From Natrinema soli (GTDB lineage: Archaea > Halobacteriota > Halobacteria > Halobacteriales > Natrialbaceae): a stretch of 25,886 nt of DNA. Made by a program: the position numbers and the translations under genes. Shown here piece after piece: positions 768 through 14,708 of the stretch; position 1 is the stretch's first letter, and the number at the start of each line of letters is the position of its first letter. The notes beneath the pieces are model-generated. The model worked only from the letters and a program-made list of their open reading frames with translations, ran no database searches and was not told the DNA's origin. The stretch spans positions 1-25,886 of the forward strand of contig NZ_JAQIVI010000272.1 of assembly GCF_028618695.1 (NCBI RefSeq), in the 5' to 3' direction.

Positions 768-1151
768 TCACAGGGAAGGGATCGGAACGACGACGACCGG
801 CCGTTTTGCGTCCTCGAGGAGCCGTCGTGCGGTCGAGCCGAGTTCGCGCGTCGCATCGGGATCGCCGCCGTGTGCGCCGATGACGATTTCGTCGACATCG
901 AACTCCTTCGCTGCCTCGGCGAGCGTGTCCGCGGGGGGACCGGAGCGACGCTCGGTCGCGACATCGCCGACGGTCGCGAGTCGAACGGAAACCACGTTCA
1001 GCGCTTCGTCGCCGTCGCGGCGCGCCGTCGGATCGTCGGGCGGAACGACCGCGATCACGGTCACGGTGTCGTCGCCCGTCGCTCGCTCGTCGAAATAGTC
1101 ACAGATCGCCGCCGTCGTGTGGACGGAGTCGGTTCCCGCGAGATAGTGCAT
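768..1151 (-). CDS. Universal stress protein UspA family, small single-domain
   Basis: This 127-residue protein has the complete UspA fold length. The ATP-binding motif G-2x-G-9x-G-S is intact: G92-A-H-G95, nine residues, then G105-S106. The C-terminal beta strand is KRPVVVVPIP. An ATP-binding cytoplasmic stress protein is therefore likely; its partner is unknown. The frame stays open upstream to 1616, but ATG at 1151 starts the domain correctly (MHYLAGTDSVH), and the extension is arginine-rich and not UspA-like. The stop codon touches the right end of the tnpB remnant, so the mobile element seems to have landed just at the 3' end of this gene. Confidence 0.85.
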   Translation of the reverse strand: MHYLAGTDSVHTTAAICDYFDERATGDDTVTVIAVVPPDDPTARRDGDEALNVVSVRLATVGDVATERRSGPPADTLAEAAKEFDVDEIVIGAHGGDPDATRELGSTARRLLEDAKRPVVVVPIPSL

Positions 1152-1581
1152 AGCGGATCGACGCTGTCGATCTCGAAGAAAGCTCCGGAAAGTACCACCG
1201 AGACGCCACGGGGACACGGTCGTTTCCGATTCGGAAGGACGCCGTATTTTCTGACCCAGAGAACGCACTCCTATCACTAATACGACGGCACTGTCACGAA
1301 CGCACGGGGGACGAGAGAGGCCATCCCCGCGCGCCTTGGTGGTCCCCCGTGCTTCCCCGAATCCGATCATCCCAGGGTCGCGACGCACGTCCCACGCAGT
1401 CCCGCAATTTTCCCTCTCACGGGGCCGCGTTGCGTCGGCGCCCCTTCTCACTGCCGACAGGGTTCGGTCGTCGGTAGATCGCTTCGGCCCGCTCCCGTCG
1501 CTAGCGGTACTGAGATCCCGTTGACCCGATTCCTTCTCGACGCTGTCGTTCGCTACTGGTGACCGTCCTCCGACGGTGCCG
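1152..1581. other. Gene-free stretch of 430 bp
   Basis: No convincing gene or RNA was found here. The open frames have arginine/serine-rich translations typical of antisense reading of GC-rich DNA. The part next to 1151 should hold the uspA promoter. A lone GGCACTGTC at 1286-1294 resembles the tip of the MITE at 11169-11400 but has no partner. Confidence 0.4.
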
Positions 1582-1893
1582 TCAATGGTGACCGTACAAC
1601 GAATACGTGATCGCAACGAGGCCGAGCAGCCGGCTCACGTTCTCGAGCAGCGCGATGACGACCCGCTCGGGATCGACCAGCGTCGTGACCGCGACGTTGA
1701 GCAGGAACGGGAACAGCGTCAACAGGAGGAGCCCGAGCGCGAGATACAGCATGGACCGGGCGTCGTTCCGGCGGTAGCCACGGTAGGCCTGATAGGCGAT
1801 GAGCGTTCCGAAGAGCGCGACGAGGAAGAGACTCGCGACGGTCAACAGTTCGAACAACGTCGCCTCGTCGACCCGCACGACGTTCCGACTCAT
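1582..1893 (-). CDS. Small membrane protein coupled to wHTH regulator (DUF7521-like)
   Basis: The product has 103 residues. Three hydrophobic segments are visible: about residues 13-35 (LFELLTVASLFLVALFGTLI), 47-70 (SMLYLALGLLLLTLFPFLLN) and 78-100 (PERVVIALLENVSRLLGLVA). Between the first two is a basic, aromatic loop (YQAYRGYRRNDARS). Small haloarchaeal proteins of this kind sit directly after winged-helix regulators, and the DUF7521 label is from memory. The ATG at 1893 overlaps the TGA of the upstream gene by 4 nt (ATGA), which suggests translational coupling. A role in sensing or signalling at the membrane together with the regulator is possible, but the function is unknown. Confidence 0.7.
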   Translation of the reverse strand: MSRNVVRVDEATLFELLTVASLFLVALFGTLIAYQAYRGYRRNDARSMLYLALGLLLLTLFPFLLNVAVTTLVDPERVVIALLENVSRLLGLVAITYSLYGHH

Positions 1894-2237
1894 CGCATCC
1901 CCTCCCACATGCGCGTGAACTTGTCGGCGACGTCTTCCTCGCGGTACGTCAGCTCCAGCGAGAACGAGCCCTCGTCCAGCGACAGTTCCAGCCGGTCGAG
2001 GTTCGCACTGTAGACGCTGTAGTGGTTGCCGTCCGGCGCGAGTTCCGTCTCTTCGATGACGAGGTGACACTCCTCGAGTCGGTCGAGTCGCCGATAGATC
2101 GTCGGGAGGGAGGCGTCACACCGTTCGCTCAGGGTACTAGCAGACATGGGTTCGACGCTCGTATGGGTGAGGATTTCACGTGCGTACTCGTCGTCGAGCA
2201 CCGCGAGCAGCGTCGACAAGTCGGTGTCCTCACTCAC
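1890..2237 (-). CDS. Winged-helix (ArsR-like) transcriptional regulator
   Basis: This 115-residue protein starts with GTG at 2237. Residues 5-60 form a winged helix: LLAVLDDEYAREILTHTS, MSASTLSERCDASLPTIYRRLDRLEE as the recognition part, then the wing HLVIEETELAPDGNHYSVY. The C-terminal half is a short beta-rich extension ending in DKFTRMWEGMR. Haloarchaea encode many such small HTH proteins. A TATA-like element (AGTTATACC on the minus strand, about 2262-2270) lies some 30 nt before the start, as expected for a leaderless transcript. The target genes are unknown; the coupled membrane protein is the likely partner. Confidence 0.8.
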   Translation of the reverse strand: MSEDTDLSTLLAVLDDEYAREILTHTSVEPMSASTLSERCDASLPTIYRRLDRLEECHLVIEETELAPDGNHYSVYSANLDRLELSLDEGSFSLELTYREEDVADKFTRMWEGMR

Positions 2238-2342
2238 TGGTATAGCTGTTCGTTTCGGTATAACTATGAAAAGCGGTCCGGTTTTTCTGAGCGAGAAAAG
2301 ACTCCTCGAGCCGTCGCGGGCAGCGACGGGATTTCGGAGCGG

Positions 2343-3253
2343 TCAGGCTGTCGTATCACTGTCGGCGTCCGTGCCGACGTAGCCAGTACTCAGTGCCCAC
2401 ACCGCGAGGAGACTCGGCAGGACGAGGATACTCGCGAGGAACGCGTATCCGATCGCGACGCTCGTAACGAAGCCAAAGCGCTGGAGCGACGGGACGAACG
2501 CGAGCACGAGGACGCCGAACCCGGCCGCGGTCGTCGCGGCGCTGGCCAGCAACGCGCCGCCGGTTCCGCGAACCGTCCGCCGAAGTGACGCGATGTGATC
2601 GCTGCCGCGTTGCTCCTCGAGGAACCGTTCGCCGATGTGAATGGCGTAGTCGACGCCGATCTCGATCGCGGCGATGATGGTCGTTTCGGGCATGAACGCG
2701 ATCCCCGCGAGGGACATCGTTCCGAACAACCACGTCTGTGCGGGCAAGACCGGGGCCATCACGACCGCACCGAGCGTGAGCGTGCGATAGCGGAGCCAGA
2801 AGATCAGCGTCAGGAACGCGACGATGACACCGAACGTGAGGAGGAATCCCTGAACGAGCGACGTGAGCAGGCCCCGCTGGACGAGTTCCTCGACGATCGG
2901 CTGGCCGGTGGCAGTCACCGTCAGGTCGGACGCTCCCTCGATCGTCGCGACCCCGCTATCTCCTCCGTGACGGTTCCGGTATCCGCCCCGCCGGAGAGCC
3001 CCACCGAGAGACGGAGCGCTCGATACTCGCCGTCGTCGCGGTGGATCGTCGCTTCGCCGGCCTCCGAGTCGGCAGCGTATACGGCGTCGTACACCGTGGT
3101 GAGGTTCTCATCGGGTACCCCGTCACCGTCCGTATCCGCCTCGTCCACGACGGCGGCGACCGTCTCGTTGGTCGCCGCGACCGACTCGATCGTCTCCAGT
3201 GGCCCGGTCGCCCGCAGGCTCCCGTCACCGAGCCCGGCTAGGTAGCGGCTCAA
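2343..3253 (-). pseudogene. RND/MMPL-family exporter, C-terminal fragment with a frameshift
   Basis: Two adjoining minus-strand frames together give about 300 residues of an RND superfamily (MMPL) exporter, which is normally about 750-1000 residues long. The first part (2921-3253) looks like a periplasmic-type loop with a DTDGDGVPDE calcium-like motif. The second (2343-2918) holds the final transmembrane bundle, with GVDYAIHIGERFLEE, the usual MMPL signature. The two are joined by a one-base loss. Adding one G to the run at 2951-2954 restores EIAGVATIEGASDLTVTATGQP. The 5' half is missing: homology stops at about 3235-3253, exactly where copy E of the 26-bp island motif lies. The first codon listed would be TTG. 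A sequencing error could explain the frameshift but not the truncation. Confidence 0.7.
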
Positions 3254-3260
3254 TGCACAG
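3235..3260 (+). repeat. 26-bp island motif, copy E (diverged centre)
   Basis: CGGCTAGGT (3235-3243) and ATGCACAG (3253-3260) stand at the same 26-bp spacing as in copy A at 8979-9004, but the nine central bases differ. It lies at the point where the MMPL exporter is cut off and so marks the left edge of the island. Confidence 0.55.
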
Positions 3261-3272
3261 TGTGGATGTTCG

Positions 3273-3380
3273 TTACAGCTTTTCTTTGACCGTATCGAAG
3301 AAGTCAGGTACGATATTGAGTCTCCATCTCAGAATCGCCCCCTCTCCACGTGAAATAAAGGGTGCTGTCGACGAAAGCAT
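3273..3380 (-). pseudogene. Short open frame, possible C-terminal scrap of a mobile-element protein
   Basis: A 35-codon minus-strand frame starts with ATG at 3380, contains FISRGEGAILRWRL and ends in VPDFFDTVKEKL with TAA at 3273-3275. It lies between the truncated exporter and the TetR gene and has no promoter of its own. It reads like the C-terminus of a transposase or similar protein, but I could not place it in a family. The opposite strand is also open here (a frame from 3254 to 3384), so the coding strand is uncertain. Confidence 0.25.
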
Positions 3381-3448
3381 CTGACTTATCTGACCGAAAT
3401 CGACTAATAGTCATATAGCATAGAGGGACGCATGGGATCTAAACGAAA

Positions 3449-3470
3449 GGGCAATACTGGCAGTTTGCCC
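3449..3470. promoter_or_regulatory. Inverted repeat upstream of the TetR gene, candidate operator
   Basis: GGGCAA (3449-3454) pairs with TTGCCC (3465-3470), and inside it ACTG (3456-3459) faces CAGT (3461-3464). This gives a nearly continuous dyad with a one-base offset, about 70 bp before the TetR start. A TATA-like CATATAG (3412-3418) lies upstream of it. TetR proteins often bind such dyads in their own promoter. The function is inferred from position only. Confidence 0.35.
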
Positions 3471-3540
3471 GAGCGACGTCTGCGACACAGAGAGGAGAAC
3501 GTACCAACGGCTCACCACCTCCCAATTCATCAGACTAACC

Positions 3541-4176
3541 ATGCCGACCTTCACTGATGCAAAGCGCGAGCGCGTCCGCGAGTCGCTCCGTGACGCCGGA
3601 CGCGAGTTCTTCGGTCGCTATGGTATCGATAAGACTACGATCTCGGAACTCACCAAGACGGCAGAAATCGGCAAAGGGACGTTCTACCAGTTCTACGATT
3701 CGAAAGAGGAACTGTATATAGATATTATTGAACAATACCTAGAAGAATACATTCCTCGGTTGCTGAGCAATTCCTTCGAAGCGTACGACGACCCAGAAAA
3801 GGCGATTGAAGCGTACCTCGAAGAGTCGATGGATGAGCTCAACTCCAACCCACTTCTCCGGCAGCTTTTTCTCGATGATGACGTCAATCAACTGCTTGAG
3901 CAGTTCTCTGACGAGGAACTCAGCGAGGGTCACGAGAGGTCAGTCGAGTTCTTCCTGCCGTATATCGAACAGTGGTACGACGAGAGTAAAGTTACCGGAC
4001 CCGATCCTGAGACAATCGCCCACACGCTTCGGCTGGTTACTCGCCTCGAATTCTCTAAGGAGCACGTCGGCCGAGAGCGATACCCTGCTGTCCGGGACAC
4101 GCTCATCTCCGCAGTCGCGGCTGGGATAACGGACGGAACCGACGAATCACCTTACTCGGAGGACCATCATGAGTGA
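3541..4176 (+). CDS. TetR/AcrR-family transcriptional regulator
   Basis: The product has 211 residues. The N-terminal HTH is clear at about residues 8-55: RVRESLRDAGREFFGRYGI, then KTTISELTKTAEIGKGTFYQFYDSKEELY. The C-terminal half is a helical ligand-binding domain, rich in acidic and aromatic residues, with no recognisable ligand signature. The gene overlaps the following phosphotransferase-like gene by 8 nt (4169-4176), so the two are cotranscribed and the regulator most likely controls that operon in response to a small molecule. Codon use is more AT-rich than in the flanking core genes, in keeping with an acquired module. The ATG at 3541 is the only reasonable start. Confidence 0.9.
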   Translation: MPTFTDAKRERVRESLRDAGREFFGRYGIDKTTISELTKTAEIGKGTFYQFYDSKEELYIDIIEQYLEEYIPRLLSNSFEAYDDPEKAIEAYLEESMDELNSNPLLRQLFLDDDVNQLLEQFSDEELSEGHERSVEFFLPYIEQWYDESKVTGPDPETIAHTLRLVTRLEFSKEHVGRERYPAVRDTLISAVAAGITDGTDESPYSEDHHE

Positions 4177-6880
4177 GAGTGAAGACGTCCAGACAGGGAC
4201 GTACGTCGTCGGATTCGACGACCCTGGTGCAACAGACCGCGCGCTCGTCGGTGGCAAGGGCGCGAACCTGGCACGGCTGGTTAGAACTGGTCTGCCGGTG
4301 CCTGCGGGATTCTGCGTGACGACTACTGCGTACGAGGCACTGATCGACGATCCGGCCATAGAGGATGCCATCGACGAACTCGCAGCGCTCGAGCCGACGG
4401 ACACGGCGGCGATCGCGGACGTGGGCGCCGCCCTCCGTACTCGGATCGAGGACTGTGACGTCCCTGAAGAGGTCCGAGACGCGATCGAGACTGCCCTCGA
4501 CGAGAAGGCGACCGATCCAGAACAGGCGTATGCGATTCGTTCGAGCGCGACGGCCGAAGACCTCCCCGATGCGTCGTTTGCGGGCCAACAGGAGACATTC
4601 CTCAACATTCACGGCGCGGATGCAATCGTCGATCGGATCCGTGCGTGCATGGCGAGCCTCTTCACTGACCGTGCAATCGCGTATCGAGCGAGGAACGATA
4701 TTCCACACGAAGAGGTCGCACTAGCGGTCGTTGTTCAACGAATGGTATCCTCGGACATCTCCGGTATCCTCTTTACAGCCGATCCGATGACGGGTAATCG
4801 GTACGTCTCAGTTATAGAGGGTGGTCTCGGTCTCGGTGAAGCGTTCGTCTCCGGCGAAATGGCCGCCGACACCATTCGAGTCGATACGCAAACCAAGGAG
4901 ATCCGTAACTACGAAGTCGGTGACCAGCAACGCACAATACGCACGCTTCCCGAAGGCGGTACCGAGACGAGAGACATCCCACCCGCCGAACGGAGGACCC
5001 GTATACTCTCGGATGAACAGGTGCAGCACCTCGTGGAACTCGGAACGGAAATCGAAGCGATATTCGACCAGCCACAGGACATCGAATGGTGTATCACCGA
5101 CGATGAGATCTACGTCGTCCAAGCACGGCCAATAACGTCGTTGTTCCCTGTCCCGTCGCCCGAGCCATCCGATGACCGATTGCATGTTTACGTCAGTATG
5201 GGACACATTCAGGCGTTTGCCGAGCCATTGCCGCCGCTCGTGCGCGATCTCTGGATGACGTTCATTCAAACGATGTACGCGAAATTCGGCTTCGGGGCCG
5301 ATACGCAGTGGGCTGTCGAGGCAGGCGGGCGCGTGTATATCGACATGACCACACAGTTACGAATCGGGCCTCTCCGGGACCAGCTCCCAGACCAACTGGC
5401 AGCAACCAGTGAACCGGCGAGTGCCGGTATCAAGGACATTCTGAGACGACGTGATGGGGAGTTCCGTGAGCAGCGGTCAGTCGGGGAAACTATCACAGCA
5501 GTGCCTAAGCTCGCCGCTGCAGCGTGGACGGGCGCGAGAACGGGATATCCACTTGTCTCCGCTCTGCTAGATGGCTTCGTTGGATCCTTTATTGGAGGGC
5601 CAGCCCCACCTGAGCACGAGAAGGCTAAATGGGTGGACTGGGGGCAGAATATTGCTGAACAAGTACGCGCCCCTGATACCCCCGAAGAGCGCTCGCGTGC
5701 CGTCTTCAACCAGTTGGACGACGTCATTCAGCTCCCATCCGTCGGTCCGTTGGTTGCTGCGTTCGCCGCAGGAAGCTGGCTCGAACGGTTGTGTTCGAAT
5801 ACCCAGGAAGAGATTGATGCCATCGGGAGAGGTTTTCCGGATGAACTGGTGACACAAATCAATCTCGGACTAGGTGATCTCGCGGATGTGGCTCGCGCTC
5901 ATCAAGAGGTCGCTGATTCTCTTCGACAGAACGCGTCTCTAGAGGAGATCGAATCCCTCGAAGGAGGGGAAGACTTCGTGAACGCATTCGAGGAGTTCCT
6001 CGACGAATTCGGTTACCGTGCGACCGGTGAAATAGATATCAGCCGTCCGCGGTGGCGTGATGATCCCTCAGTGCTGCTCGAGACAGTTCGCGCGAATCTC
6101 GACCACGGTGAGTCGGGCGAACACCGCGAGCATGTCCGGCGGATGGAACGTGAAGCACTGGACGCAGCCAAGCGGCTCGAACAGCGAGCTGATAATGGAT
6201 TGTTCGGATCGGCTCGAAAGCGTCTCGTTCATCGATTTATCAGAACGTATCGCGCCTATATCCAGACACGTGAGTACCCAAAACAGGGTCTGGCCCACAT
6301 ATTCACGGCGTGGCATGAAACACTCCGTGACGCCGGCGACCTACTCGTCACGGAGGGGATTTTGAACAGTTCCGACGACGTCTGGTTCCTCCGAAAAGGC
6401 GAATTGTTCGCTGCGCTCGATGGTGACTCGATCGCGGTCGATATCGACGCCAGACGCGCCGCGTTCGACCGCTACGCGGCACTGGATGCGCCACCAGTGT
6501 TGACGAGCGAAGGTGAAGCGCCAAGCGCGGACATCGAGCGTGAGGATGTCCCGGACGACGCACTCGTCGGAACCGGCGTGTCAGGTGGCATCGTCGAAGG
6601 ATCGGCACGAGTCGTGCACGATCCCGCAGAAGAGACGATCGAGAAAGATGAAATCCTCATCGCTCCGTCGTCCGATCCCGGCTGGACGCCGCTGTTCCTG
6701 AACGCAGCAGGTATCGTCGTCGAGGTAGGGGGGCGGCTGAGTCACGGCGCGCTCGTTGCACGCGAATACGGACTTCCAGGCGTGGTGTCGGTTCCCGAAG
6801 CGACTCGCCGCATCAAGACTGGACAGCGGGTGCGGATTGACGGAACTCGGGGAACGGTTGAGATCATCGAGGACGATTGA
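4169..6880 (+). CDS. Rifampin-phosphotransferase-like / PEP-utilising dikinase family enzyme
   Basis: The product has 903 residues. Residues 1-330 form the PPDK/PEP-synthase ATP-binding domain, with GGKGANL (28-34), the RSSATAEDLPDASFAGQQET block (124-143), DIEW (304-307) and QARPIT (318-323). A long, mostly helical middle region (about 330-790) follows. The C-terminus (about 796-903) is the swivelling phosphohistidine domain, with GGRLSHG and His859 as the predicted phosphocarrier. There is no PEP-binding TIM barrel after the His domain. The order ATP-grasp, substrate domain, His domain is that of rifampin phosphotransferase, which moves the beta-phosphate of ATP onto an antibiotic, and not that of PEP synthase. 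The substrate is unknown. It is cotranscribed with the TetR gene, which suggests inducible detoxification. Confidence 0.8.
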   Translation: MSESEDVQTGTYVVGFDDPGATDRALVGGKGANLARLVRTGLPVPAGFCVTTTAYEALIDDPAIEDAIDELAALEPTDTAAIADVGAALRTRIEDCDVPEEVRDAIETALDEKATDPEQAYAIRSSATAEDLPDASFAGQQETFLNIHGADAIVDRIRACMASLFTDRAIAYRARNDIPHEEVALAVVVQRMVSSDISGILFTADPMTGNRYVSVIEGGLGLGEAFVSGEMAADTIRVDTQTKEIRNYEVGDQQRTIRTLPEGGTETRDIPPAERRTRILSDEQVQHLVELGTEIEAIFDQPQDIEWCITDDEIYVVQARPITSLFPVPSPEPSDDRLHVYVSMGHIQAFAEPLPPLVRDLWMTFIQTMYAKFGFGADTQWAVEAGGRVYIDMTTQLRIGPLRDQLPDQLAATSEPASAGIKDILRRRDGEFREQRSVGETITAVPKLAAAAWTGARTGYPLVSALLDGFVGSFIGGPAPPEHEKAKWVDWGQNIAEQVRAPDTPEERSRAVFNQLDDVIQLPSVGPLVAAFAAGSWLERLCSNTQEEIDAIGRGFPDELVTQINLGLGDLADVARAHQEVADSLRQNASLEEIESLEGGEDFVNAFEEFLDEFGYRATGEIDISRPRWRDDPSVLLETVRANLDHGESGEHREHVRRMEREALDAAKRLEQRADNGLFGSARKRLVHRFIRTYRAYIQTREYPKQGLAHIFTAWHETLRDAGDLLVTEGILNSSDDVWFLRKGELFAALDGDSIAVDIDARRAAFDRYAALDAPPVLTSEGEAPSADIEREDVPDDALVGTGVSGGIVEGSARVVHDPAEETIEKDEILIAPSSDPGWTPLFLNAAGIVVEVGGRLSHGALVAREYGLPGVVSVPEATRRIKTGQRVRIDGTRGTVEIIEDD

Positions 6881-7034
6881 TGGCTCACTCACTGGATCTT
6901 CTGAATCGTTCTGGAAAATCAGCTTCGGTAGTTCAAAGAAGTTCGATATTCTGCAGAGACTGAATCAGGGAGATAGTGTACTTGTGCATAGTGCGTGTTG
7001 AATCCAATCCAACCAGCCTACATTTCGGCGGTGG

Positions 7035-7060
7035 CTATGTATAACGAATCGACCTAGCCG
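7035..7060 (-). repeat. 26-bp island motif, copy D (inverted)
   Basis: On the minus strand this reads CGGCTAGGTCGATTCGT, then TATACATAG. Eighteen bases (7044-7061) are identical to copy C at 11423-11440. Relative to copy E it is inverted, so E and D face inward around the TetR/phosphotransferase module. The TAG (7056-7054) ends the 46-codon frame upstream. Confidence 0.65.
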
Positions 7061-7194
7061 ACTTCTGCCGTCAGCCAGTTTCCTGCGGAGGACGTGGCAC
7101 AGTTCATGCAGTCCGGGATCGAGTCCGGCAAGAACAGACACTCGTAGCGGACGGCGTTCGCTTGACCGAACCGTTCTGTATACCGGAATATGGT
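7054..7194 (-). pseudogene. Fragment ORF with a C-x2-C pair ending in motif copy D
   Basis: A 46-codon open frame without a usable ATG at its head contains RFGQANAVRYECLFLPDS, IPDCMNCATSSAG and NWLTAEVG, and stops at the TAG inside motif D. The IPDCMNC piece resembles the start of small haloarchaeal zinc-finger proteins, and an internal ATG (MNCATSS) exists. It could be the surviving 3' part of a gene cut by rearrangement. Confidence 0.25.
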
Positions 7195-7245
7195 TTATCT
7201 GGGCGGTCAGTGCCCGATCGAGCCGTCTCAGGGGCGATCGGCCGT

Positions 7246-7965
7246 CTACCCGAGCCAGCCGAACAGCCGCTCGAGCAACCGATCTTCGCCGTCCTGCGAG
7301 AATCGGTGGCCTTCGCCCGCGAATCGCTCGAGGAGGACGTCGGTCTCGAGTCGCTGAGCGGCATCGAAGCTATCGGCGGGATCGACGACCCCGTCGTCTC
7401 CGCCGTGGAAAACCGCGACCGGAACCGACAGCGTCGACGCGACGTCGTCGAACGGATACCGATCCAGGTGGTCGAAGAACCGCCGGTCGAGGCGCTCACC
7501 GGAATCGAACGTCACCTCGCCCTCTCGTTCGACCGTCGCCCGATACTCGTCGAAGGTCTCGTTGGTCGTCACCGGCGCTCGCGTGGCGATCGCGTCGACT
7601 CGGTCGTCGGCCGCTCCGGCGTGGAACGCGACTTTCCCGCCGAAGCTTGAGCCGAACAGGGTGTACGAGTCGGGATCGAAGTAGTCGACGACGTGGTGGA
7701 GGTCTGTCAGTCGCGCCTCGAGCGTCGACTCGACGAACTCACCGTCCGATTCGCCGCAGCCGCGACAATCGAATCGAACCGCGTTGTAGCCGGCCGCGAC
7801 CGCTCGGCGAGATCGCCGCTCGTAGCTGCCGGACTTGTCACTCCGAAGCCCGTGACAGAAGACGAGCCAGTCGTCGGACGACGCCTCGTGATGGACGGCC
7901 GCGAGTTCCGGTGGACTCCGTCCCGTCGCCGCGGTTTCGATCCGGATTCGGTGTCTGTCTGGCAT
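7246..7965 (-). CDS. Alpha/beta hydrolase (serine esterase/peptidase-like)
   Basis: The product has 239 residues. The fold shows the oxyanion HG (FCHGLRSDKSGSY, residues 37-48), the strand-turn AVRFDCRGCGESDGE (62-76), the nucleophile elbow G105-S-S107-F-G109, an acid in HGGDDGVVD (Asp190/191) and the histidine in GEGH220RF. The triad Ser107-Asp-His220 is therefore complete. No signal peptide is visible, so the enzyme is cytoplasmic. The length is typical of small monomeric hydrolases. The substrate is unknown. Base composition is GC-rich like the core genome, unlike the neighbouring phosphotransferase gene. It lies alone on its strand between motif copies D and A. Confidence 0.85.
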   Translation of the reverse strand: MPDRHRIRIETAATGRSPPELAAVHHEASSDDWLVFCHGLRSDKSGSYERRSRRAVAAGYNAVRFDCRGCGESDGEFVESTLEARLTDLHHVVDYFDPDSYTLFGSSFGGKVAFHAGAADDRVDAIATRAPVTTNETFDEYRATVEREGEVTFDSGERLDRRFFDHLDRYPFDDVASTLSVPVAVFHGGDDGVVDPADSFDAAQRLETDVLLERFAGEGHRFSQDGEDRLLERLFGWLG

Positions 7966-8431
7966 TCGTCTCCCCTGATGGGCCCCTCTTCCTTGATAGC
8001 GGTGTTCGAATGAGACGACCGATCGATACTCGAGCGCGTCGACCGTCGGCTACCTCATGACGAACTGTGCAGATGACCTCGCGTCGAGGGGCGAGGAATG
8101 GCTCACGAACGGATGAATCCCGGGGTCGAGGCGTCGGAACCGTCGTCGAATCGAATCCCGAGATCGCTGTCGGTGCTCCCGGCTCGTTCCGACGATCGGG
8201 TTTCACAGCGACAGCGGCTCTTTCTCTCCGTTCGAGAGAACGGGCGATACTACCGCTGCACCTCCGTTACCGCCGAACCGATTGCGAATCGCTTCCGACG
8301 GATGGGGTCGATCGTGGTCTTCTCGGAGCGACCTCCGTCGGATCCAACGAAGGAACTCGCGCCCGACTCGTCGGTCGACGCCGCTCTCTCGTGGCACACC
8401 GTTTTTGCGCTTCGAGAGAGTCGGTTCCGCT
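7966..8431. other. Gene-free stretch of 466 bp
   Basis: Open frames cross the gap but their translations are arginine/serine-rich and mutually overlapping, and none is convincing. A small hairpin, CCGTTC/GAGA/GAACGG (8228-8243), is the only local structure seen. The right end should carry the promoter of the zinc-ribbon gene. Confidence 0.35.
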
Positions 8432-8596
8432 ATGACCCGCACCACTTATCGGTGTGCGTGTGGCGCACACCTCGAGTTCAAACAGGACCTCGAGAAGGAG
8501 TCCGGAACGACGACGCCGACCTGGAAGTGCAAGGACTGCGGGACGCCGGTGCCGGGGATGACCGCCGAAAAGATCAGACATCAGGATCCATCCTGA
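8432..8596 (+). CDS. Small zinc-ribbon protein
   Basis: The product has 54 residues and starts at the ATG at 8432. Four cysteines stand in two pairs: CAC (Cys8, Cys10) and C-x2-C in KCKDCGTPVPG (Cys33, Cys36), separated by a hydrophilic stretch. This fits a rubredoxin-like zinc knuckle, such as the many small CPxCG-type proteins of haloarchaea. The first pair has only one residue between the cysteines, which is unusual. Role unknown; such proteins often bind nucleic acid or other proteins. A larger overlapping frame (8098-8676) is not favoured. Confidence 0.65.
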   Translation: MTRTTYRCACGAHLEFKQDLEKESGTTTPTWKCKDCGTPVPGMTAEKIRHQDPS

Positions 8597-9052
8597 ATCG
8601 TGGCACCGCTACGAGGAGCCTATCGAATGCATACCATCGCAGTTCGATAACTACGGTCCCGCGTTTTAACACCTGAGACGTGCTTTTCCACGGCTTTCGA
8701 TTGTTATCCGACGGACAGCTCTCCCCCTCACCCATAAATCAATAATAGCTATATTAAATTTGAGGGGCCGATATACGCTTGGCGTTCACCGTCACTGGGA
8801 CCCCAGACCCGAGGGCTGCTTGATTACTGGACGAGAAATGCGAGAGTTCGCGACCGCTGTGGTCTGTTCGGCGCCAGGTCTGTCCGAATCTCTACTCCGG
8901 TGCACCAGATACGACGTGCTCGAGTACGGGTCGACTTTCTGACCGCCTGTCTGTCCAGCAGTCGTTGGGACCTGAACTCGGCTAGGTCGGTTTGTCATGC
9001 ACAGATACCTGCGAAATTTAGGTTGTCGAGAGTGAGACGGTAGTTCTTTCAC
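8597..9052. other. Gene-poor stretch of 456 bp with an AT-rich patch and motif copy A
   Basis: An AT-rich patch (ATAATAGCTATATTAAATTT, 8742-8761) looks like a promoter and could serve a 34-codon frame from ATG 8839 to 8942 (MREFATAVVCSAPG...), which I do not recognise. Motif copy A follows at 8979-9004. A TATA-like AAATTTAGG at about 9014-9022 lies 30-40 nt before the next gene and is its likely promoter. Confidence 0.35.
8979..9004 (+). repeat. 26-bp island motif, copy A
   Basis: CGGCTAGGTCGGTTTGTC followed by ATGCACAG. The 23 bases 8982-9004 match copy B (9574-9596) at 22 positions in direct orientation. The upstream TGAACT (8973-8978) is shared with copy C. TAG at 8983-8985 closes an open frame that ends in GPELG. 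Confidence 0.7.
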
Positions 9053-9577
9053 ATGACAAATCGAATTAGGATCATGCCTGCATCACCGAGAACGGGGCTC
9101 GCTGGACGGGCATGGTCACCAGCGTGGGCAGGGTACATGGGCTGCGCATGGATGTTCGTATTCGCAGCAATGAGCTTCTACTGGGCACTGGGAGGAACCA
9201 CTGGTCTCAACACTGTCTCACTCGGTCAAGAACTTGCGGGTGAATCGTGGTTCATCATGGTCCTCTGGTTTACTGGCTTTCTGAAAGTCATCGGTGGCTT
9301 GCTCGCGCTTGCGCTCGTTCGGGCTTGGGATCGGTGGATTCCCCGCTGGCTGCTACTCATCGCCGCGTGGGGTGTGGGCGTAGTCTTGCTCCTCCATGGC
9401 GGTGATTTCATGGTTCAGGGAGCACTCACGGAGACAGGAATCATTAGTTTCTCGGGCCCTGCGACCTGGACGTCGGCTCACTGGCAGACGTTCGTGTGGG
9501 GGCCGTGGTGGCTTCTCGGTGGTCTCATCTTCTGTCTGGCGGCTTGGAACTACCAGTCGATCTCAGCGGTCGACTAG
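9053..9577 (+). CDS. DUF3995-like integral membrane protein
   Basis: The product has 174 residues and four hydrophobic segments: about 24-45 (AWAGYMGCAWMFVFAAMSFYWA), 67-92 (WFIMVLWFTGFLKVIGGLLALAL), 97-116 (IPRWLLLIAAWGVGVVLLLHGG) and 145-166 (TFVWGPWWLLGGLIFCLAAW). The pattern, with a tryptophan-rich last helix and the WDRWIPRWLLL loop, resembles the DUF3995 family, small membrane proteins of unknown function found mainly in bacteria. It is the only gene between motif copies A and B, and its TAG stop lies inside copy B. That makes it look like a single-gene cassette. A start at MPASP (9074) is possible. Confidence 0.7.
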   Translation: MTNRIRIMPASPRTGLAGRAWSPAWAGYMGCAWMFVFAAMSFYWALGGTTGLNTVSLGQELAGESWFIMVLWFTGFLKVIGGLLALALVRAWDRWIPRWLLLIAAWGVGVVLLLHGGDFMVQGALTETGIISFSGPATWTSAHWQTFVWGPWWLLGGLIFCLAAWNYQSISAVD

Positions 9578-9596
9578 GTCGGTTTATCATGCACAG
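9571..9596 (+). repeat. 26-bp island motif, copy B (overlaps the DUF3995 stop codon)
   Basis: CGACTAGGTCGGTTTATC followed by ATGCACAG. It differs from copy A at only two positions over 26. TAG at 9575-9577 is the stop codon of the membrane protein gene, so the repeat begins inside the coding region. Confidence 0.7.
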
Positions 9597-9718
9597 TTCC
9601 ATCTGGAGGCAGCTATGTCAATTTGTCACCAATATATTTTCTGGAATATGCTAACAGTGATGTTTTCACTTTCTGTCACGCTTGAAAAGTCTCCTTGCCG
9701 GACTTCAGAAGTGTATCT

Positions 9719-10357
9719 TTATTCCGTCTCCGTCTCTGCCGCTGCGACGAACTCTTTGATGATGTGTCCCTCAGCGCGGTGGAGGATGTCGCTCGCTGTG
9801 GATTTGCTGATGCCGAGTGTCGCGGCGAGCTCGGTGAGTGAACACTCGCGAGGGGTATCGTAGTATCCACGGGTGACTGCTTCGGTGACTACTCGCCACT
9901 GACGGTCAGTGAGGAGGTTGGTTGGATCGACCAACGGAGTTACCGATATGACCTCGTAAGGTACCCCGTTCGTTTCGAGTCCTGCTTTGAGCTGTGAGAG
10001 CTGCTCCTGAGCAGTGAATGATTCGACGATCACCCACCCGTTGCGAATCGCGAGTGGGAATTTCGGGGCTATTCCGGCAGAATGGAGCATCTGGCGCGGT
10101 AGCGGTTCTTGAATCACGTGCTGTATCAACAGCGTCTGTTCAGAGACATTGAGTACCTCATACGAGCGTACCTCGGAAGCCTCTTCGAAGTCTTGGATGA
10201 TGGCCTCAGCGCTCGATGTATCGGCTTCCATGAGCACGCACAGTCCATCCTCGGTGTCGTAGGAAGATAGGATTCTGAACTCATCGTTGGGATACCTCCT
10301 GGAAAATCGCTCGAACTGTTCGTGGGACGGTTTGATCTTGAGTTTGACTCGGGGCAT
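9719..10357 (-). CDS. HTH_10 (bacterio-opsin activator-type) transcriptional regulator
   Basis: The product has 212 residues. The first about 145 residues form an alpha/beta sensor-like part seen in haloarchaeal Bat-like proteins (MPRVKLKIKPSHEQFERFSRRY..., FTAQEQLSQLKAGLETNGV). The C-terminus is a typical HTH_10 domain: LTDRQWRVVTEAVTRGYYDTPR (about 149-170), then LTELAATLGISKSTASDILHRAE as the helix-turn-helix. Haloarchaea use such proteins to regulate stress, metabolism and bacterio-opsin genes. It diverges from the membrane protein gene at 10507 across a 149-bp intergenic region, so that gene is a plausible target. The ATG at 10357 is well placed. Confidence 0.85.
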   Translation of the reverse strand: MPRVKLKIKPSHEQFERFSRRYPNDEFRILSSYDTEDGLCVLMEADTSSAEAIIQDFEEASEVRSYEVLNVSEQTLLIQHVIQEPLPRQMLHSAGIAPKFPLAIRNGWVIVESFTAQEQLSQLKAGLETNGVPYEVISVTPLVDPTNLLTDRQWRVVTEAVTRGYYDTPRECSLTELAATLGISKSTASDILHRAEGHIIKEFVAAAETETE

Positions 10358-10494
10358 CTACGTCACATGTTCGACTGTGTGGTATTAGCTTGCACTACGG
10401 ACATGTTTGATGGTACGTTGATGAATATGCCCTGCCTCTTGTAGCGTGTGAAACCAAATACCACGAGAGTCCGAGAGAATCCCCCTGACACGCA

Positions 10495-10500
10495 GGAGGT
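10495..10500 (+). promoter_or_regulatory. Strong Shine-Dalgarno GGAGGT before the membrane protein
   Basis: GGAGGT ends 6 nt before the ATG at 10507. Most genes in this window lack such a site and seem leaderless or coupled, so it supports both the start choice and a transcript with a 5' leader. Confidence 0.6.
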
Positions 10501-10506
10501 CAGTCA

Positions 10507-11079
10507 ATGACGTCTGTGCGCTCTAGCATCCAGACGGCAGTTGAGGTGCCGCTCTGGGCGTTCACCTTTTACCGCACGCATTTATTCCTCATCGTGGGAA
10601 TTTCCCTCCTGCCAGCTGCACAGCGGTTCGTCGCCATATTGTGGGGGTGGAATCTCCCATCGCCGGGGGATCTGGCACTTGAGATTCTTGTCATGGGTGT
10701 CCGACTTCTGCTGTTCGGAGTGATTGTCTGGCTAGCTATCTCCCGTGATGACACGTTGAGTCAGGTCAATAGCGGGGAACGATGGGCGCGTATGAAGGCG
10801 TTTATCAGTACTCAATGGCCCAGTCTAATTGTCCAGTTTGTTCTACTCACTGGTGCCGTCATCATCTTCGACGTTATCCCAGAGCAGATTATCGTGCAGT
10901 GGATTCCCGCTAATCTTGAGTCGATTTATCTGGCGTCCTTGATCGCTGTGAAGAACCTCACCGTAATCGCCTTCACTATGATTTGGATGGTCGGAATAGT
11001 TCGACAGATGATGTTGTATTCCCGCGACGCTGTTGAAAGAACGGGTACAGAGCCGATTTCAGCGGAAGTCCACCAATGA
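10507..11079 (+). CDS. Uncharacterised membrane protein divergent from the HTH_10 gene
   Basis: The product has 190 residues and at least four hydrophobic segments: about 25-46 (HLFLIVGISLLPAAQRFVAIL), 57-80 (LALEILVMGVRLLLFGVIVWLAI), 105-125 (PSLIVQFVLLTGAVIIFDVIP) and 138-170 (SIYLASLIAVKNLTVIAFTMIWMVGIVR). The ends are hydrophilic. No family was recognised. Its position opposite a Bat-like regulator suggests regulation by it. Codon use is more AT-rich than in the Mrp genes. A short ORF starts on the ATGA overlap at its stop codon. Confidence 0.7.
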   Translation: MTSVRSSIQTAVEVPLWAFTFYRTHLFLIVGISLLPAAQRFVAILWGWNLPSPGDLALEILVMGVRLLLFGVIVWLAISRDDTLSQVNSGERWARMKAFISTQWPSLIVQFVLLTGAVIIFDVIPEQIIVQWIPANLESIYLASLIAVKNLTVIAFTMIWMVGIVRQMMLYSRDAVERTGTEPISAEVHQ

Positions 11080-11180
11080 TAGGACGGTTTGAAAGCGGCC
11101 TACAAGATATAGAGGATGCACGCAGCAGGGCGTTATCTACAGACGTTGCGATAACAAAGATGCCGCGAGGTACTGTCTAG
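11076..11180 (+). CDS. Possible 34-residue ORF coupled by ATGA, 3' end replaced by a MITE
   Basis: ATG at 11076 overlaps the TGA of the membrane gene. The frame (MIGRFESGLQDIEDARSRAL...) is acidic at first and ends at the TAG formed by the left tip of the MITE (11169-11400). With the MITE and one target copy removed, the frame would end RYF-stop three codons after the insertion. Size and coupling are the only support. Confidence 0.25.
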   Translation: MIGRFESGLQDIEDARSRALSTDVAITKMPRGTV

Positions 11181-11408
11181 ATAAGGGAAACCGCAAGACA
11201 GGACGACAATGAAGTGACGGTATCGGTTGTGAAATTACCATCTATGATTTAACATAAAGAGACCCTGTTCCACGAGCAGCGAAAATTCGGCTGCTTCAGC
11301 AAACGTCCCATAAACAGTAATGGTCCCAGATCCCATCGGTGTTGCTTCGACAGACGCTGAAACGGCGTTTGACGTTAGAATCGCTTAACTAGACAGTGCC
11401 TGCCGCGA
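11161..11408. mobile_element. 232-bp MITE (11169-11400) with IS6-like tips and 8-bp target duplication
   Basis: The left tip GGTACTGTCTAGATAAGGG (11169-11187) and the reverse complement of the right tip, GGCACTGTCTAGTTAAGCG (11382-11400), match at 16 of 19 positions. Both sides are flanked by the perfect direct repeat TGCCGCGA (11161-11168 and 11401-11408). An 8-bp duplication and a GGCACTGT tip fit the IS6 family. The interior has no transposase and so depends on one elsewhere. It contains a hairpin (AGCAGCGAA/TTCGGCTGCT, 11275-11295) and a 49-codon minus-strand frame (11235-11384, with GSGTITVYGTFAEAAEF) of uncertain meaning. Confidence 0.85.
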
Positions 11409-11423
11409 AGATACTTCTGAACT

Positions 11424-11449
11424 CGGCTAGGTCGATTCGTCGTATATAA
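11424..11449 (+). repeat. 26-bp island motif, copy C
   Basis: CGGCTAGGTCGATTCGTC followed by GTATATAA. Differences from copy A are transitions only. It starts 23 bp right of the MITE and is the last copy seen, marking the right edge of the motif-containing island. TGAACT upstream is shared with copy A. No gene was found between it and the TetR start at 11589. Confidence 0.65.
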
Positions 11450-11588
11450 TCCTGTATGAAATTTATACCATCAATTGATTCCAGCACCCACCGTGCATGA
11501 GGAAATCATCTGCTTGACTTCAGTCGAGACGGGTTCAGTGACTACGAGAGAGGATGGCTTATGAACCTACATCAGCCATACGAGTACA

Positions 11589-12221
11589 ATGGGCCGCCAT
11601 CCCGAAACTGAACAACGAATTAGAGAAGCCGCATTTCGCGCGCTTGTCGAACACGGATACGCGGATCTCTCCATCAAAGATATCGGTGAAGAGCTAGGCC
11701 AAAACCCGTCGCTCATATACCACTATTTCGATAGCAAGGACGATCTCTTACTCTCGATGCTCGATGTCTTCGTCGAAATATTCCTCGAGCAACGGACCGA
11801 GAAGGCGATTACCGACGCGCAAGCGGAGCTCCGGGAGTTCGTCCGTCAAATACTGCATCCGAAGCCGGCGCAGGTCGAACAGGTCATGTTCTCCCCGCCA
11901 TCGGATATCGAGACGGGGGTCTCTCGGATTTTCGTCGAGCTGTGGGCGCACGCGACGTGGGATGCCGACTTCCGCAGGAAAACCACGATGGTAGAGGACC
12001 GCCTCCGGGAAACGGTCACCCGGATACTCCGCGCCGGAATCGAACTCGAGCAGTTTCGACCCATTGATCCCGAGCTTACGGCGGATCACGTACTCTTTCT
12101 CCTCAAGCAAGGGATACATACGAGGACGACGACGAACCGGGATGCTGCCGTCGATCGGGTCCAAACGATCGTCGACGGAATTATAACTGATATCTCCCGC
12201 GAGAGCTATAGTAGCCACTGA
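11589..12221 (+). CDS. TetR/AcrR-family transcriptional regulator (P450/SDR cluster)
   Basis: The product has 210 residues. The N-terminal HTH spans about 10-55: RIREAAFRALVEHGYADLSIKDIGEELG, then SLIYHYFDSKDDLLLSML. The C-terminal domain is helical, with VEQVMFSPPSDIETGVSRIFVELWAHATWDADFR and a second half resembling the TetR_C domains that bind hydrophobic ligands. A TATA-like CTTATGAA lies about 30 nt before ATG 11589, which fits a leaderless transcript. The gene precedes the P450 on the same strand, and AT-rich palindromes at the P450 and SDR promoters are candidate binding sites. Its stop codon lies inside a large nested inverted repeat. Confidence 0.9.
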   Translation: MGRHPETEQRIREAAFRALVEHGYADLSIKDIGEELGQNPSLIYHYFDSKDDLLLSMLDVFVEIFLEQRTEKAITDAQAELREFVRQILHPKPAQVEQVMFSPPSDIETGVSRIFVELWAHATWDADFRRKTTMVEDRLRETVTRILRAGIELEQFRPIDPELTADHVLFLLKQGIHTRTTTNRDAAVDRVQTIVDGIITDISRESYSSH

Positions 12222-12298
12222 AACGATTTACATACCGATCGCGAAGTTGTCGTGCGATCGGGTGTGCATTGATTTTCAGTTTGTACTATAGCGGGAGA
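12193..12298. repeat. 106-bp nested inverted repeat overlapping the TetR 3' end
   Basis: Four collinear arm pairs are perfect: TCTCCCG 12193-12199 with 12292-12298; CTATAGTA 12206-12213 with TACTATAG 12284-12291; ACTGAAA 12217-12223 with TTTCAGT 12274-12280; and CCGATCGC 12235-12242 with GCGATCGG 12254-12261. That is 30 paired bases around an 11-nt loop, with symmetric internal loops. It could be an RNA hairpin (3' end of the TetR mRNA or a leader for the P450), a cruciform, or a decayed mobile element. No target duplication was seen. Confidence 0.6.
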
Positions 12299-12458
12299 GC
12301 AAGTCCAATACGTATCTGGCTCGAGTTATCCTCCGGCATTCGGTTACTCGACTTCTCAGCCTCGTTCCGCTGGTCACTCTTCGATACTGCTACCGCTCCG
12401 TTTACATGTTTGTGCGTCTAGATCGATGGGGGCGAGAATGCACCAAAAGGACTACAAC

Positions 12459-12481
12459 TGATTAAATGATCAATTAAATCA
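12459..12481. promoter_or_regulatory. AT-rich imperfect palindrome at the P450 start
   Basis: The 23-bp dyad TGATTAAAT-GATCA-ATTAAATCA has 8 of 11 pairs matching and touches the ATG of the P450. ATTAAAT also occurs twice, 11 bp apart (one helical turn). It resembles the palindrome upstream of the SDR gene and may be the operator of the neighbouring TetR protein. Confidence 0.45.
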
Positions 12482-13698
12482 TGGAGTCCCCCGATTCAGT
12501 CGTCGGAGTGGGCCGATCACCGGAAGCCATTCGAAGCCCCGAAGGACAACTTTCGCCGTTCGAGTGGTACGCTGAAATGCGTCAAGAGACGCCAGTTCAC
12601 TTCGACGAGCAGCGAGAGACGTGGGACGTATTTCGATACGAGGACGTCGAACGCGTGCTCAAAGACCACGACACGTTTACGGCTAATCGGGCTTTCGAAG
12701 CCGACGAGTCCTCGAACGACGGTGACGACGATAGCCCGATGCTTCAGACGATGATTACGACCGATCCACCGACACAGACCCGACTCCGAGGGTTCGTCGA
12801 CGACCGATTCCAGCCGGGGGCGATACGGGAGTACCAACCGCGAGTGGAGACGGTAACGGAGGACCTGTTGGACGACCTCGAAGACGAGAATAGTTTCGAC
12901 TTCGTCGACGAGTTCGCGATTCCGCTTCCCGTCATCGTCATCGCCGAACTACTGGGAATTTCCGCCGACCGTCGTGATCAGTTTAAAGAGTGGTCGGACG
13001 CACTCGTCGCGCGACCCGAAGACGACACTCCGGAGGAGATAGAACGGGTGCAACGGGAACAGAAGGAGGCCCAACGAGCGATGGGGAGATTCTTCGCGGA
13101 GTTACTGGAAGAGCGCGATGGCGGCGACGGCGACGATCTCATTACGCTCGCGGCGAACGCGGAGGAGTTATCCAGGGGTGAACAGATCGGCTTCTGCATG
13201 CTGCTCCTCCTCGCGGGCAACATCACGACGACGAATCTCCTCACCAACGCGATCTGGTCCGTCGAAGAACACGGGCTGACGGGCGCGATTCGTACGGGGG
13301 ACGTCGATCACACACAGGCTATCGAGGAGACGCTTCGATACCGATCCCCGATCCAATCGTTGAAGCGTATCGCCGTGGAGGACGTCGAGCTACACGGTCA
13401 ACGGATTCAGGCGGGGGACGTCCTCACGCTCTGGCTAGGTGCCGCAAACCGCGATCCGGAAATCTTCGATGCGGCCGAAGAGTTTCGGCCCGAGCGGCGT
13501 CCGAACCGCCATATGGCGTTCGGAACGGGAGTCCACTTCTGTCTGGGCGCTCATCTCGCACGGATGGAAGCGGACGTTGCCCTGGATCGATTGTTCGACC
13601 GTTTCGACCGCCTGGATGCGGATTTGTCAGATCTCGAGCCGTTGAGTGCCCTCTATGGTCTCGAATCACTCCCCTGTGAAGTGAGTCGAAACGCGTAA
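12481..13698 (+). CDS. Cytochrome P450 (bacterial class-I type, CYP)
   Basis: The product has 405 residues, the normal length for a soluble P450. The C-helix motif is DPPTQTRLR (95-103). The I-helix is LLLLAGNITTTNLL (241-254), the ExxR is E283-T-L-R286, and the heme loop FGTGVHFCLGAHLAR (347-361) has the thiolate Cys354. The I-helix acid usually found before the threonine pair is isoleucine here (A245-G-N-I248-T-T). The protein is soluble, with no membrane anchor, and would need ferredoxin-type partners, which are not in the window. The substrate is unknown; the adjacent SDR could oxidise the resulting alcohol. ATG 12481 gives the full N-terminus. Confidence 0.95.
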   Translation: MESPDSVVGVGRSPEAIRSPEGQLSPFEWYAEMRQETPVHFDEQRETWDVFRYEDVERVLKDHDTFTANRAFEADESSNDGDDDSPMLQTMITTDPPTQTRLRGFVDDRFQPGAIREYQPRVETVTEDLLDDLEDENSFDFVDEFAIPLPVIVIAELLGISADRRDQFKEWSDALVARPEDDTPEEIERVQREQKEAQRAMGRFFAELLEERDGGDGDDLITLAANAEELSRGEQIGFCMLLLLAGNITTTNLLTNAIWSVEEHGLTGAIRTGDVDHTQAIEETLRYRSPIQSLKRIAVEDVELHGQRIQAGDVLTLWLGAANRDPEIFDAAEEFRPERRPNRHMAFGTGVHFCLGAHLARMEADVALDRLFDRFDRLDADLSDLEPLSALYGLESLPCEVSRNA

Positions 13699-13782
13699 GC
13701 ATACGAAAAGCGTCGATATTGCTGGATTTTCCGGGCCACCGTCACACGTGCCCGGCGGATCGAGACGTCGTAGAACGGTGGT

Positions 13783-14553
13783 TCAGTCAGCCGCCTGACC
13801 GCCATCGACGGGGAGCGTGTGGCCGGTGATATACGACGCATCATCGGAACAGAGGAACGCGACCGCGCCGGCCATCTCTTCCGGGTTCGCGATGCGGTCC
13901 ATCGGGACGTCGATCATCGCCGACGTGTCGAACTCCATCTCCGACGGATCGCCGCCTCCCGACATTCCGGATTGGATGTTCGTGTTCGTCGGCCCCGGGG
14001 CGATAGCGTTCACTCGAATCCCTCGCGTCGCGTACTCGAGAGCCACCGTCTTCGTGAGGCCGACTACGCCGTGTTTGCTAGCCGAATAGCTGGCGAGTCC
14101 CCCCATCCCTACCAACCCGGATTCGGAAGCGGTGTTGACGATCGCGCCGCTCCCCTGTGCTTCCATGACGGGAAGTTCGGCTTTCAGACACGCCCAGACG
14201 CCTTTCAGATTGATATCGAGGAGCTTGTCCCACTGTGCTTCTTCGATGTCAGTTACTCCTGCAAACCCCGTGAGAATTCCCGCGTTGTTATGCGCGAAAT
14301 CGAGAGTTCCGTACGTGTCGACTGCGACATCGACCATTCGCTCGACCGACTCGAAATCGGCGACGTCAACTTCGACGAACGTGGCATCACCGCCGGCGTC
14401 CTCGATCAGGTCGACCGTTTCGCGACCGGTTTCCGCAGCGATATCTGCGACGACGACGTTCGCGCCGTCCGCTGCAAAGCGTTCTGCCGACGCACGTCCG
14501 ATTCCCGATCCCGCTCCCGTCACCAGAGCCGTCTTTCCGTCTATTCCGTTCAT
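13783..14553 (-). CDS. Short-chain dehydrogenase/reductase (classical SDR)
   Basis: The product has 256 residues. The cofactor motif TGAGSGIG stands at 12-19, and Asp37 at the end of beta-2 (VVVADIA) favours NAD(H) over NADP(H). NNAG is at 89-92, a serine in NTASES (143 or 145), and the catalytic pair Y156-x3-K160 in YSASK. The C-terminal ITGHTLPVDGG is typical of 3-oxoacyl-ACP reductase/glucose-dehydrogenase-like SDRs. It is convergent with the P450, with 84 bp between their stop codons, and has its own promoter carrying an AT-rich palindrome. Oxidation of a hydroxylated P450 product is a reasonable but unproven role. Confidence 0.92.
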   Translation of the reverse strand: MNGIDGKTALVTGAGSGIGRASAERFAADGANVVVADIAAETGRETVDLIEDAGGDATFVEVDVADFESVERMVDVAVDTYGTLDFAHNNAGILTGFAGVTDIEEAQWDKLLDINLKGVWACLKAELPVMEAQGSGAIVNTASESGLVGMGGLASYSASKHGVVGLTKTVALEYATRGIRVNAIAPGPTNTNIQSGMSGGGDPSEMEFDTSAMIDVPMDRIANPEEMAGAVAFLCSDDASYITGHTLPVDGGQAAD

Positions 14554-14567
14554 TATTGACCTGAGTG

Positions 14568-14587
14568 TTAATTAACCGTTTAATTAA
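14568..14587. promoter_or_regulatory. AT-rich palindrome in the SDR promoter
   Basis: TTAATTAACCGTTTAATTAA is a near-perfect dyad (9 of 10 pairs) that ends 15 nt before the SDR start at 14553. It is where a TATA box would stand for a leaderless gene, so a bound repressor would block TBP. The similarity to the P450 site suggests shared control. Confidence 0.5.
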
Positions 14588-14708
14588 TATAGTCCTTTGG
14601 CCGATCTCCGTGGCGGCGACCGAGCGCGCTCTCGCATCCGATCGCGATCGACGAGCGTTTTTTCCGGCTTCGTGAGACCGAAACACAGATTTAGGACCGT
14701 GGAACAGT

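Follow-up and report, generated by a model that had tools for sequence, protein, structure and literature searches.

What forms the borders between the small gene modules of an accessory island in the haloarchaeon Natrinema soli? The stretch analyzed, contig NZ_JAQIVI010000272.1, positions 1 to 25,886 (25,886 nucleotides; hereafter, the window), had been described in an initial annotation as carrying five copies (A to E) of a 26-bp motif between such modules, and two explanations were put forward: a recombination site comparable to that of gene cassettes, or the ends of an undescribed transposon family. The second of these holds up. Very probably, the motif forms the terminal inverted repeats in a family of haloarchaeal transposons, and genes enclosed between pairs of these tips would be moved as passengers. 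The family would comprise two kinds of member: a transposon with an ISH7-related DDE transposase, and a ~108-bp non-coding miniature inverted-repeat transposable element (MITE) with the same tip. The case is built from sequence comparison, i.e., from shared tips, a fixed spacing between tip and transposase, insertion, empty sites, duplications, and passengers. Below, genomes and the stretches fetched from them are cited by our G and L numbers, respectively.

The motif and the ~108-bp element

All five copies of the motif are present where they were reported, but only four of them (at 7035 on the minus strand, and at 8979, 9571, and 11424 on the plus strand) match the consensus with three or fewer mismatches, compared with none in 100 shuffles. 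Copy A, at 3235, is another thing: only the two outer motif blocks are kept, and because it aligns and scores as a transposon end (Table 1), it is judged to be what is left of the transposase-side end in an ISH7-related transposon, the transposase being gone here. Copies B and E are both complete elements, even though E had been thought the weakest of the five; copy C has a decayed right end, with none clear, and an inverted 52-bp match links it to B. The tetranucleotide CTAG, which sits within the conserved tip GGCTAGGT, occurs 21 times in the window, vs. ~90 expected from base composition and ~30 from a second-order estimate. It had also been pointed out that the TAG of each copy ends an upstream open frame. 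This is trivially so, the open stretches being 124, 46, 53, 177, and 13 codons for A, B, C, D, and E, but a Pfam-matching gene (DUF3995) is closed in this way only at D.

The motif is in fact one end of a larger non-coding element of ~108 bp, CTGARGTCGGCTAGGTCGATTCGTCATGCATAG ... GCGAAATTTAG ... GCATGAGAAATCYACYTGCCTGACTTCAG, whose ends are ~33-bp imperfect terminal inverted repeats with the tip sequence CTGAAGTC. A genome scan with the 22-bp core yielded 12 loci in six haloarchaeal genomes, with no match in viral contigs. A covariance model made from 11 copies found the element in all six genomes of these first loci. When 391 haloarchaeal genomes sampled from the class were screened at E<=1e-8, with strict filters and nine candidates scored per genome, 23 had it. 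Halobacteriales archaeon YIM A00010 (G001) alone has 141 covariance-model matches on both strands, overlaps counted. In a profile search of 20 stretches of G001, the window, and L014, there were 84 non-overlapping copies, 78, 5, and 1, respectively, which point either way and are frequently nested or next to one another. The element has the features of a MITE: it is short and non-coding, it has terminal inverted repeats and tips common to an autonomous transposon, and target duplications and empty sites are found.

An ISH7-related transposon that shares the tip

A position matrix of the element ends, which scored no higher than ~7 bits when one 20-kb stretch was shuffled 20 times, matched the start of a longer repeat encoding a 666 amino acid transposase open reading frame (ORF) with DUF772 (PF05598) and DDE_Tnp_1 (PF01609) domains. 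The nearest named relative is ISH7A (ISNCY; 40.0% identity over query residues 88-666, E=2e-122), and the NCBIfam transposase models, ISH3 included, all remained below cut-off. Searching the 391 genomes with the transposase DNA (two candidates scored per genome) gave a match at E<=1e-40 in 30. Fifteen of 20 fetched loci contain a transposase that is 74-92% identical and includes the 3' end, and 14 of these 15 have the tip, at 18-40 bits and 189-203 bp from the last matched base (~191 bp from the stop); in the 203-bp case, four residues are missing from the transposase match. Seven transposon loci also match a 231-residue serine recombinase query along its whole length (the family, PF00239, was checked on one), and in these seven, whose far ends were examined, the inverted repeat was found on the transposase side only. 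Two further candidates for autonomous units, L051:7228-7853 and L068:2309-4392, contained no transposase recognizable by eye.

It had been suggested to look for a recombinase that co-occurs with the motif, and the transposase is likely to be the mobilizing enzyme. Of the 12 genomes with a long transposase match, 11 contain the element (the exception is G136), vs. 12 of the other 379 (Fisher p=2e-14), a long match being at least 79% identity over at least 0.9 kb, a threshold chosen by hand; some of these genomes had contributed copies to the element model. Left out of the 12 were short 80-83% matches in G079 and G341, which have the element, and in G325, which does not, as well as a 73% match in G277, also without it; including the three short matches, the count is 13 of 15.

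Empty sites and the two inserted units

A 6.9-kb piece of the window was searched against 125 genomes of the family, and stretches were fetched from some of the best. The stretch from G413 (L195) matches window positions 777-1522, 1577-3226, 7097-8971, 11523-12203, and 12289-17520, and both window units, the one from A to B and the one from C to E, are absent from it as blocks. Whether empty sites with one copy of the motif exist had been posed as a check; G413 shows two empty sites, with no tip found in L195 at >=11 bits. Unit A-B (3228-7067; 3,840 bp) has an exact 6-bp duplication, CCGTCA, on both sides: the flank closes with ...CTCCCGTCA on the left and opens with CCGTCAGCCAGTTTC on the right, whereas G413 reads CTCCCGTCGGCCAGTTTC, with CCGTCG at the target. 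Unit C-E (8972-11523; 2,552 bp) lies between TTGGGAC and TCGAGAC, where the relative has TTGAGAC, one change per side (window, GTCGTTGGGAC-unit-TCGAGACGGGTTCAG; G413, GTCGTTGAGACGAGTTCAG). Element tips form both of its ends; the match to G413 breaks off at 8971 and starts again at 11523, where E has its last base.

The proposed module borders thus coincide with tips, but one of the modules does not survive. G413 has the stretch containing the hydrolase and putative zinc-ribbon genes, and G378 and G410 have parts of it; the stretches fetched from them show no tip. Since it occurs in relatives that lack the element there, it is, as judged from these alignments, backbone and not a passenger. At 7095-7097, the window has a ~2.5-kb deletion relative to G413 and G378; because the gap starts 28 bp beyond B, i.e., outside the A-B unit, we consider this deletion separate from the A-B insertion. 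In L195, the ~2.5-kb segment includes most of a 617-codon open frame.

The block of TetR and rifamycin-phosphotransferase-like (Rph-like) genes that constitutes unit A-B is found elsewhere. A plasmid of Natrinema SYSU A 869 (L200) has it at 89% over 3.46 kb, with a transposon tip plus transposase on one side and a 108-bp element on the other; an exact 8-bp duplication lies outside, and the outer flanks are unlike those of the window. In this plasmid and in N. taiwanensis (G002:C59), the block meets transposase sequence at the same junction. Natrialba aegyptia shares window positions 6075-7067 at 92%, the match ending at the outer tip of B.

Target duplications around pairs of tips

Convergent tip pairs up to 20 kb apart were examined for outer duplications in 61 non-overlapping stretches containing 202 tips. 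Exact duplications of 6, 7, and 8 bp were found around 9 of 184 convergent pairs (2, 2, and 5, respectively), vs. control means of 0.022, 0.022, and 0.000 when the flanks were shifted 15-59 bases outward; divergent pairs gave 0 of 118. Window tip A was placed by hand after its duplication had been seen, and without it, the count is 8 of 181. Including stretch L094, which overlaps L055, gives 9 of 185 and 0 of 119. Duplications of 6-8 bp flank single elements and also long units whose ends are a transposon tip and a miniature element (or a lone element end), or two miniature elements.

Six of the units with a duplication are long, their tips lying 2.6-8.9 kb apart (Table 1). Two of them, in different genomes (the window and L200), enclose the TetR-Rph block. 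In five, one of the ends is a transposase-side tip; the far end of the L172 unit is a lone tip. The transposase lies inside the L158, L172, L156, and L200 units, and the recombinase is full-length in L156 and partial in L158. No matching duplication was found for L051:14247-18694, in which the transposase and two ABC-transporter-like genes lie between two tips, or for the transposase-bearing units of L161, L165, and L166.

Table 1. Features of the window, and long units with exact outer duplications in the window and elsewhere. Bit scores are from the 108-bp profile unless stated otherwise.
Feature	Position	Strand	Evidence or content
Left copy of 6-bp target duplication CCGTCA, unit A-B	3222..3227		
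Copy A, remnant of transposase-side transposon end (134 bp)	3228..3361	+	Full-length alignment with 10 transposon ends; profile of 12 transposon ends, 76 bits over 3235-3360, E=4.3e-23; 108-bp profile, 0.9 bits
TetR regulator, passenger gene	3541..4176	+	PF00440
Phosphoenolpyruvate synthase/rifamycin-phosphotransferase-like enzyme, passenger gene	4169..6880	+	PF01326, PF00391; NCBIfam matches all below cut-offs
Copy B, complete 108-bp element bordering A-B on the right	6960..7067	-	90.5 bits, E=1.1e-27
Right copy of target duplication CCGTCA, unit A-B	7068..7073		
Backbone: hydrolase gene (7246-7965) and small ORF (zinc ribbon in the initial annotation)	7097..8971		Found in relatives
Left target copy TTGGGAC, unit C-E (empty site TTGAGAC)	8965..8971		
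Copy C, 108-bp element bordering C-E on the left, right end decayed	8972..9062	+	53 bits
DUF3995 protein, passenger gene, last codons from copy D	9053..9577	+	PF13160
Copy D, 40-bp element-end fragment	9564..9605	+	17.7 bits
Diverged 108-bp-type element directly after D	about 9603..9709	+	27.5 bits
HTH_10 regulator, passenger gene	9719..10357	-	PF04967
ORF, passenger gene ("membrane protein" in the initial annotation only)	10507..11079	+	No Pfam match
Copy E, complete element, right boundary of C-E	11417..11523	+	87 bits
Right target copy TCGAGAC, unit C-E	11524..11530		
Long unit with duplication	L066:309-2939		VWA domain (here and below, Pfam-matching genes among the ORFs scanned)
Long unit with duplication	window 3228-7067		TetR, Rph-like gene
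Long unit with duplication	L158:2991-8304		DUF7347 regulator, MFS transporter
Long unit with duplication	L200:3230-9002		TetR, Rph-like gene
Long unit with duplication	L172:1646-7972		Two HTH_10 regulators, methyltransferase
Long unit with duplication	L156:552-9417		MFS transporter, aldo-keto reductase

Two further short sequences with inverted ends were seen in and beside unit C-E. Positions 11168-11401 hold a separate element of ~232 bp, which ends in the inverted sequences TACTGTCTAG / CTAGACAGTGCC and is flanked by the direct repeat TGCCGCGA; stretches 79-84% identical to it are found in Natrinema and Haloterrigena plasmids (L013, L015, L016). An insertion of ~85 bp at 12204-12288, with inverted ends CTATAGTA, is absent in G413 (L195 positions 7748/7749 are contiguous) and has a copy in the SYSU A 869 plasmid (L200 10755-10839).

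Weighing the alternatives

Several observations do not sit easily with transposition of tip-bounded units. The 7-bp duplication of unit C-E is imperfect (5/7), and the TetR-Rph block of N. taiwanensis C59 (L198) has no tip on either side. One of the 15 close transposase loci, L163, has no tip above 12 bits, five distant relatives (48-58% identical, including the 3' end or nearly so) have none, and no recognizable 33-bp tip was found on the recombinase side in the seven loci, although their far ends align mutually. The co-occurrence of element and transposase is confounded by kinship, and the searches scored only nine and two candidates per genome, respectively. Several tips are one-sided stops of a homologous gene or repeat. 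Finally, among the clean complete copies (44 in all, 42 of them in G001 and one each in L014 and the window; 5 of 49 were dropped because of short flanks or unclear ends), a near-exact duplication of its own was found for only 2, where shuffles lead one to expect ~0.3, and most copies are thus, on the available alignments, not demonstrable as simple insertions. Copies without a duplication could possibly be the result of deletions outward from a tip or of decay, or they may have partner tips beyond the fetched stretches. For copies on the Haladaptatus chromosome, the homology found was one-sided only.

An alternative view is that these are plain MITEs inserted one at a time, that the module borders arose by later deletion or homologous recombination, and that the genes were never passengers. 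Three single elements have exact 6-8-bp duplications of their own (L061:259, L054:4437, and L051:11947), and uninterrupted sites for one of them exist at two other genomic places, albeit with a short shared left flank; one copy was inserted in the end of a repeated sequence. The repeated one-sided truncations at tips and the frequent nesting or adjacency of elements also fit this view, which may be true for many of the G001 copies. As a general explanation it is unlikely, given that six tip pairs 2.6-8.9 kb apart have exact outer duplications, the TetR-Rph block lying inside two of these pairs, and that G413 lacks each of the window units as a whole block. Just beyond the tips of the 44 clean copies, certain bases are favored symmetrically on the two sides (A at +1; T at +2, 49/88; G at +9, 42/88), which is perhaps a target-site preference of the transposase; the joined flanks of each copy are not palindromic (173 matches vs. 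180 shuffled). An apparent move of the element between two Halocatena marina isolates was rejected. The sole copy-number difference stems from a stretch of at least 13.9 kb that is present twice on plasmid 2 of QDMS1, either a duplication or an assembly artefact, whereas RDMS1 shows one element (L084, L085, L086).

That a gene together with one element is excised and inserted at the motif by a site-specific recombinase, as with an integron attC site, is very improbable. The gene modules here are indeed bordered, as integron cassettes are, by a short imperfect palindromic repeat, and the complete transposon copies are accompanied by the PF00239 recombinase. A CPBP-protease gene with its element also matches tip to tip between G001 and G363 (L061:3895-5115, L073:1501-2613); both homology ends are at element tips, the neighbors differ on each side, and no duplication explains this segment. 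However, the elements occur in mixed orientations, 6-8-bp target duplications and composite units are present, the boundaries fall at the outer tips of the ~108-bp terminal-inverted-repeat element and not within a core site, and the shared tip adjoins a DDE transposase. That the repeat is a regulatory sequence (promoter or operator) or an RNA element recurring upstream of genes is scarcely credible: the conserved central GAAATTTAG does resemble the familiar haloarchaeal B recognition element/TATA box, but the flanks are unrelated between copies, single-strand DNA folding of five copies was unremarkable (z -1.81 to +0.71), and the uninterrupted sites and target duplications indicate that the element inserts. 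Transposition from paired tips remains the reading that we prefer.

Relation to known systems

In bacteria, TIMEs form composite-transposon-like units known as TIME-COMPs (PMC4133298; PMC13367494), which, as described there, appear to be the closest analogue: a miniature element has the tips of an autonomous transposon, and two copies bound and move other DNA. The six units here, known from sequence, likewise have two tips bounding passengers and a duplication outside. They would nevertheless behave like TIME-COMPs without being such, since the transposase (PF05598 plus PF01609) is ISH7/ISNCY-related and not of the Tn3 family; in addition, the system is archaeal, the element is ~108 bp vs. 262 or 244 bp, and the duplications are 6-8 bp vs. 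the 5 bp reported for TIME-RES. Tn3-type parents carry a resolvase, to which the serine recombinase of the complete copies may be compared.

Within the haloarchaea, ISH7A of Halobacterium salinarum pNRC100 has, besides its 40% identical transposase, a similar tip, CTGATGT...ATGCATAG, at 16 bits and 187 bp from the stop, but the interior of the repeat differs; a repeat-like match (15/20 bases) at its far end has no counterpart that we could find in the new transposon. In Haloquadratum walsbyi, the SMR-A repeats are described as having no target duplication and ends unlike any transposon (PMC3119063). They are similar in being ~110 bp long, non-coding, and haloarchaeal, with prominent inverted terminal repeats and up to dozens of copies, and they target the near-terminal palindromes of PATE/IS605; one copy here is in the end of a repeated sequence, and joined flanks are not palindromic copy by copy. 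They differ from the present element, going by their description and not their sequence, in that target duplications (albeit not for most single copies) and transposon-matching tips are found here. A review of prokaryotic MITEs includes Halobacterium and Haloquadratum among the archaea that have them (PMC10969869). In the titles and abstract beginnings that our searches of the open-licence literature brought up, neither this element nor an archaeal composite with miniature elements at its ends was described, in keeping with the suggestion that the transposon family had not been described.

Proposed mechanism and implications

We infer that the transposase acts on two convergent tips and moves everything between them, so that neighboring genes become passengers. 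Unit A-B, with its TetR and Rph-like genes, would have arisen in this way, the transposase being deleted later, and so would unit C-E, with the DUF3995 and HTH_10 genes and a further ORF, in a backbone common to relatives that have neither unit. Complete copies of the transposon additionally carry the serine recombinase, which may resolve cointegrates in the manner envisaged for Tn3-type elements. More tentatively, gene capture might be a two-part affair, in which the transposon has a tip on its transposase side only and borrows its second end from a free 108-bp element. This idea is rather doubtful, as it conflicts with the common far end of the seven recombinase-bearing copies; were it true, each dispersed element would be a ready far end, the genes between would be passengers, and there would be a general route to accessory islands in element-rich haloarchaea.

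Transposition of tip-bounded units would explain in concrete terms how haloarchaeal islands come to be patchworks of small gene modules. The 108-bp element, easily overlooked in annotation, would mark the ends of mobile units carrying regulators, transporters, and enzymes, and it may offer a lead on the ~110-bp Haloquadratum repeats, whose mobilization was called enigmatic.

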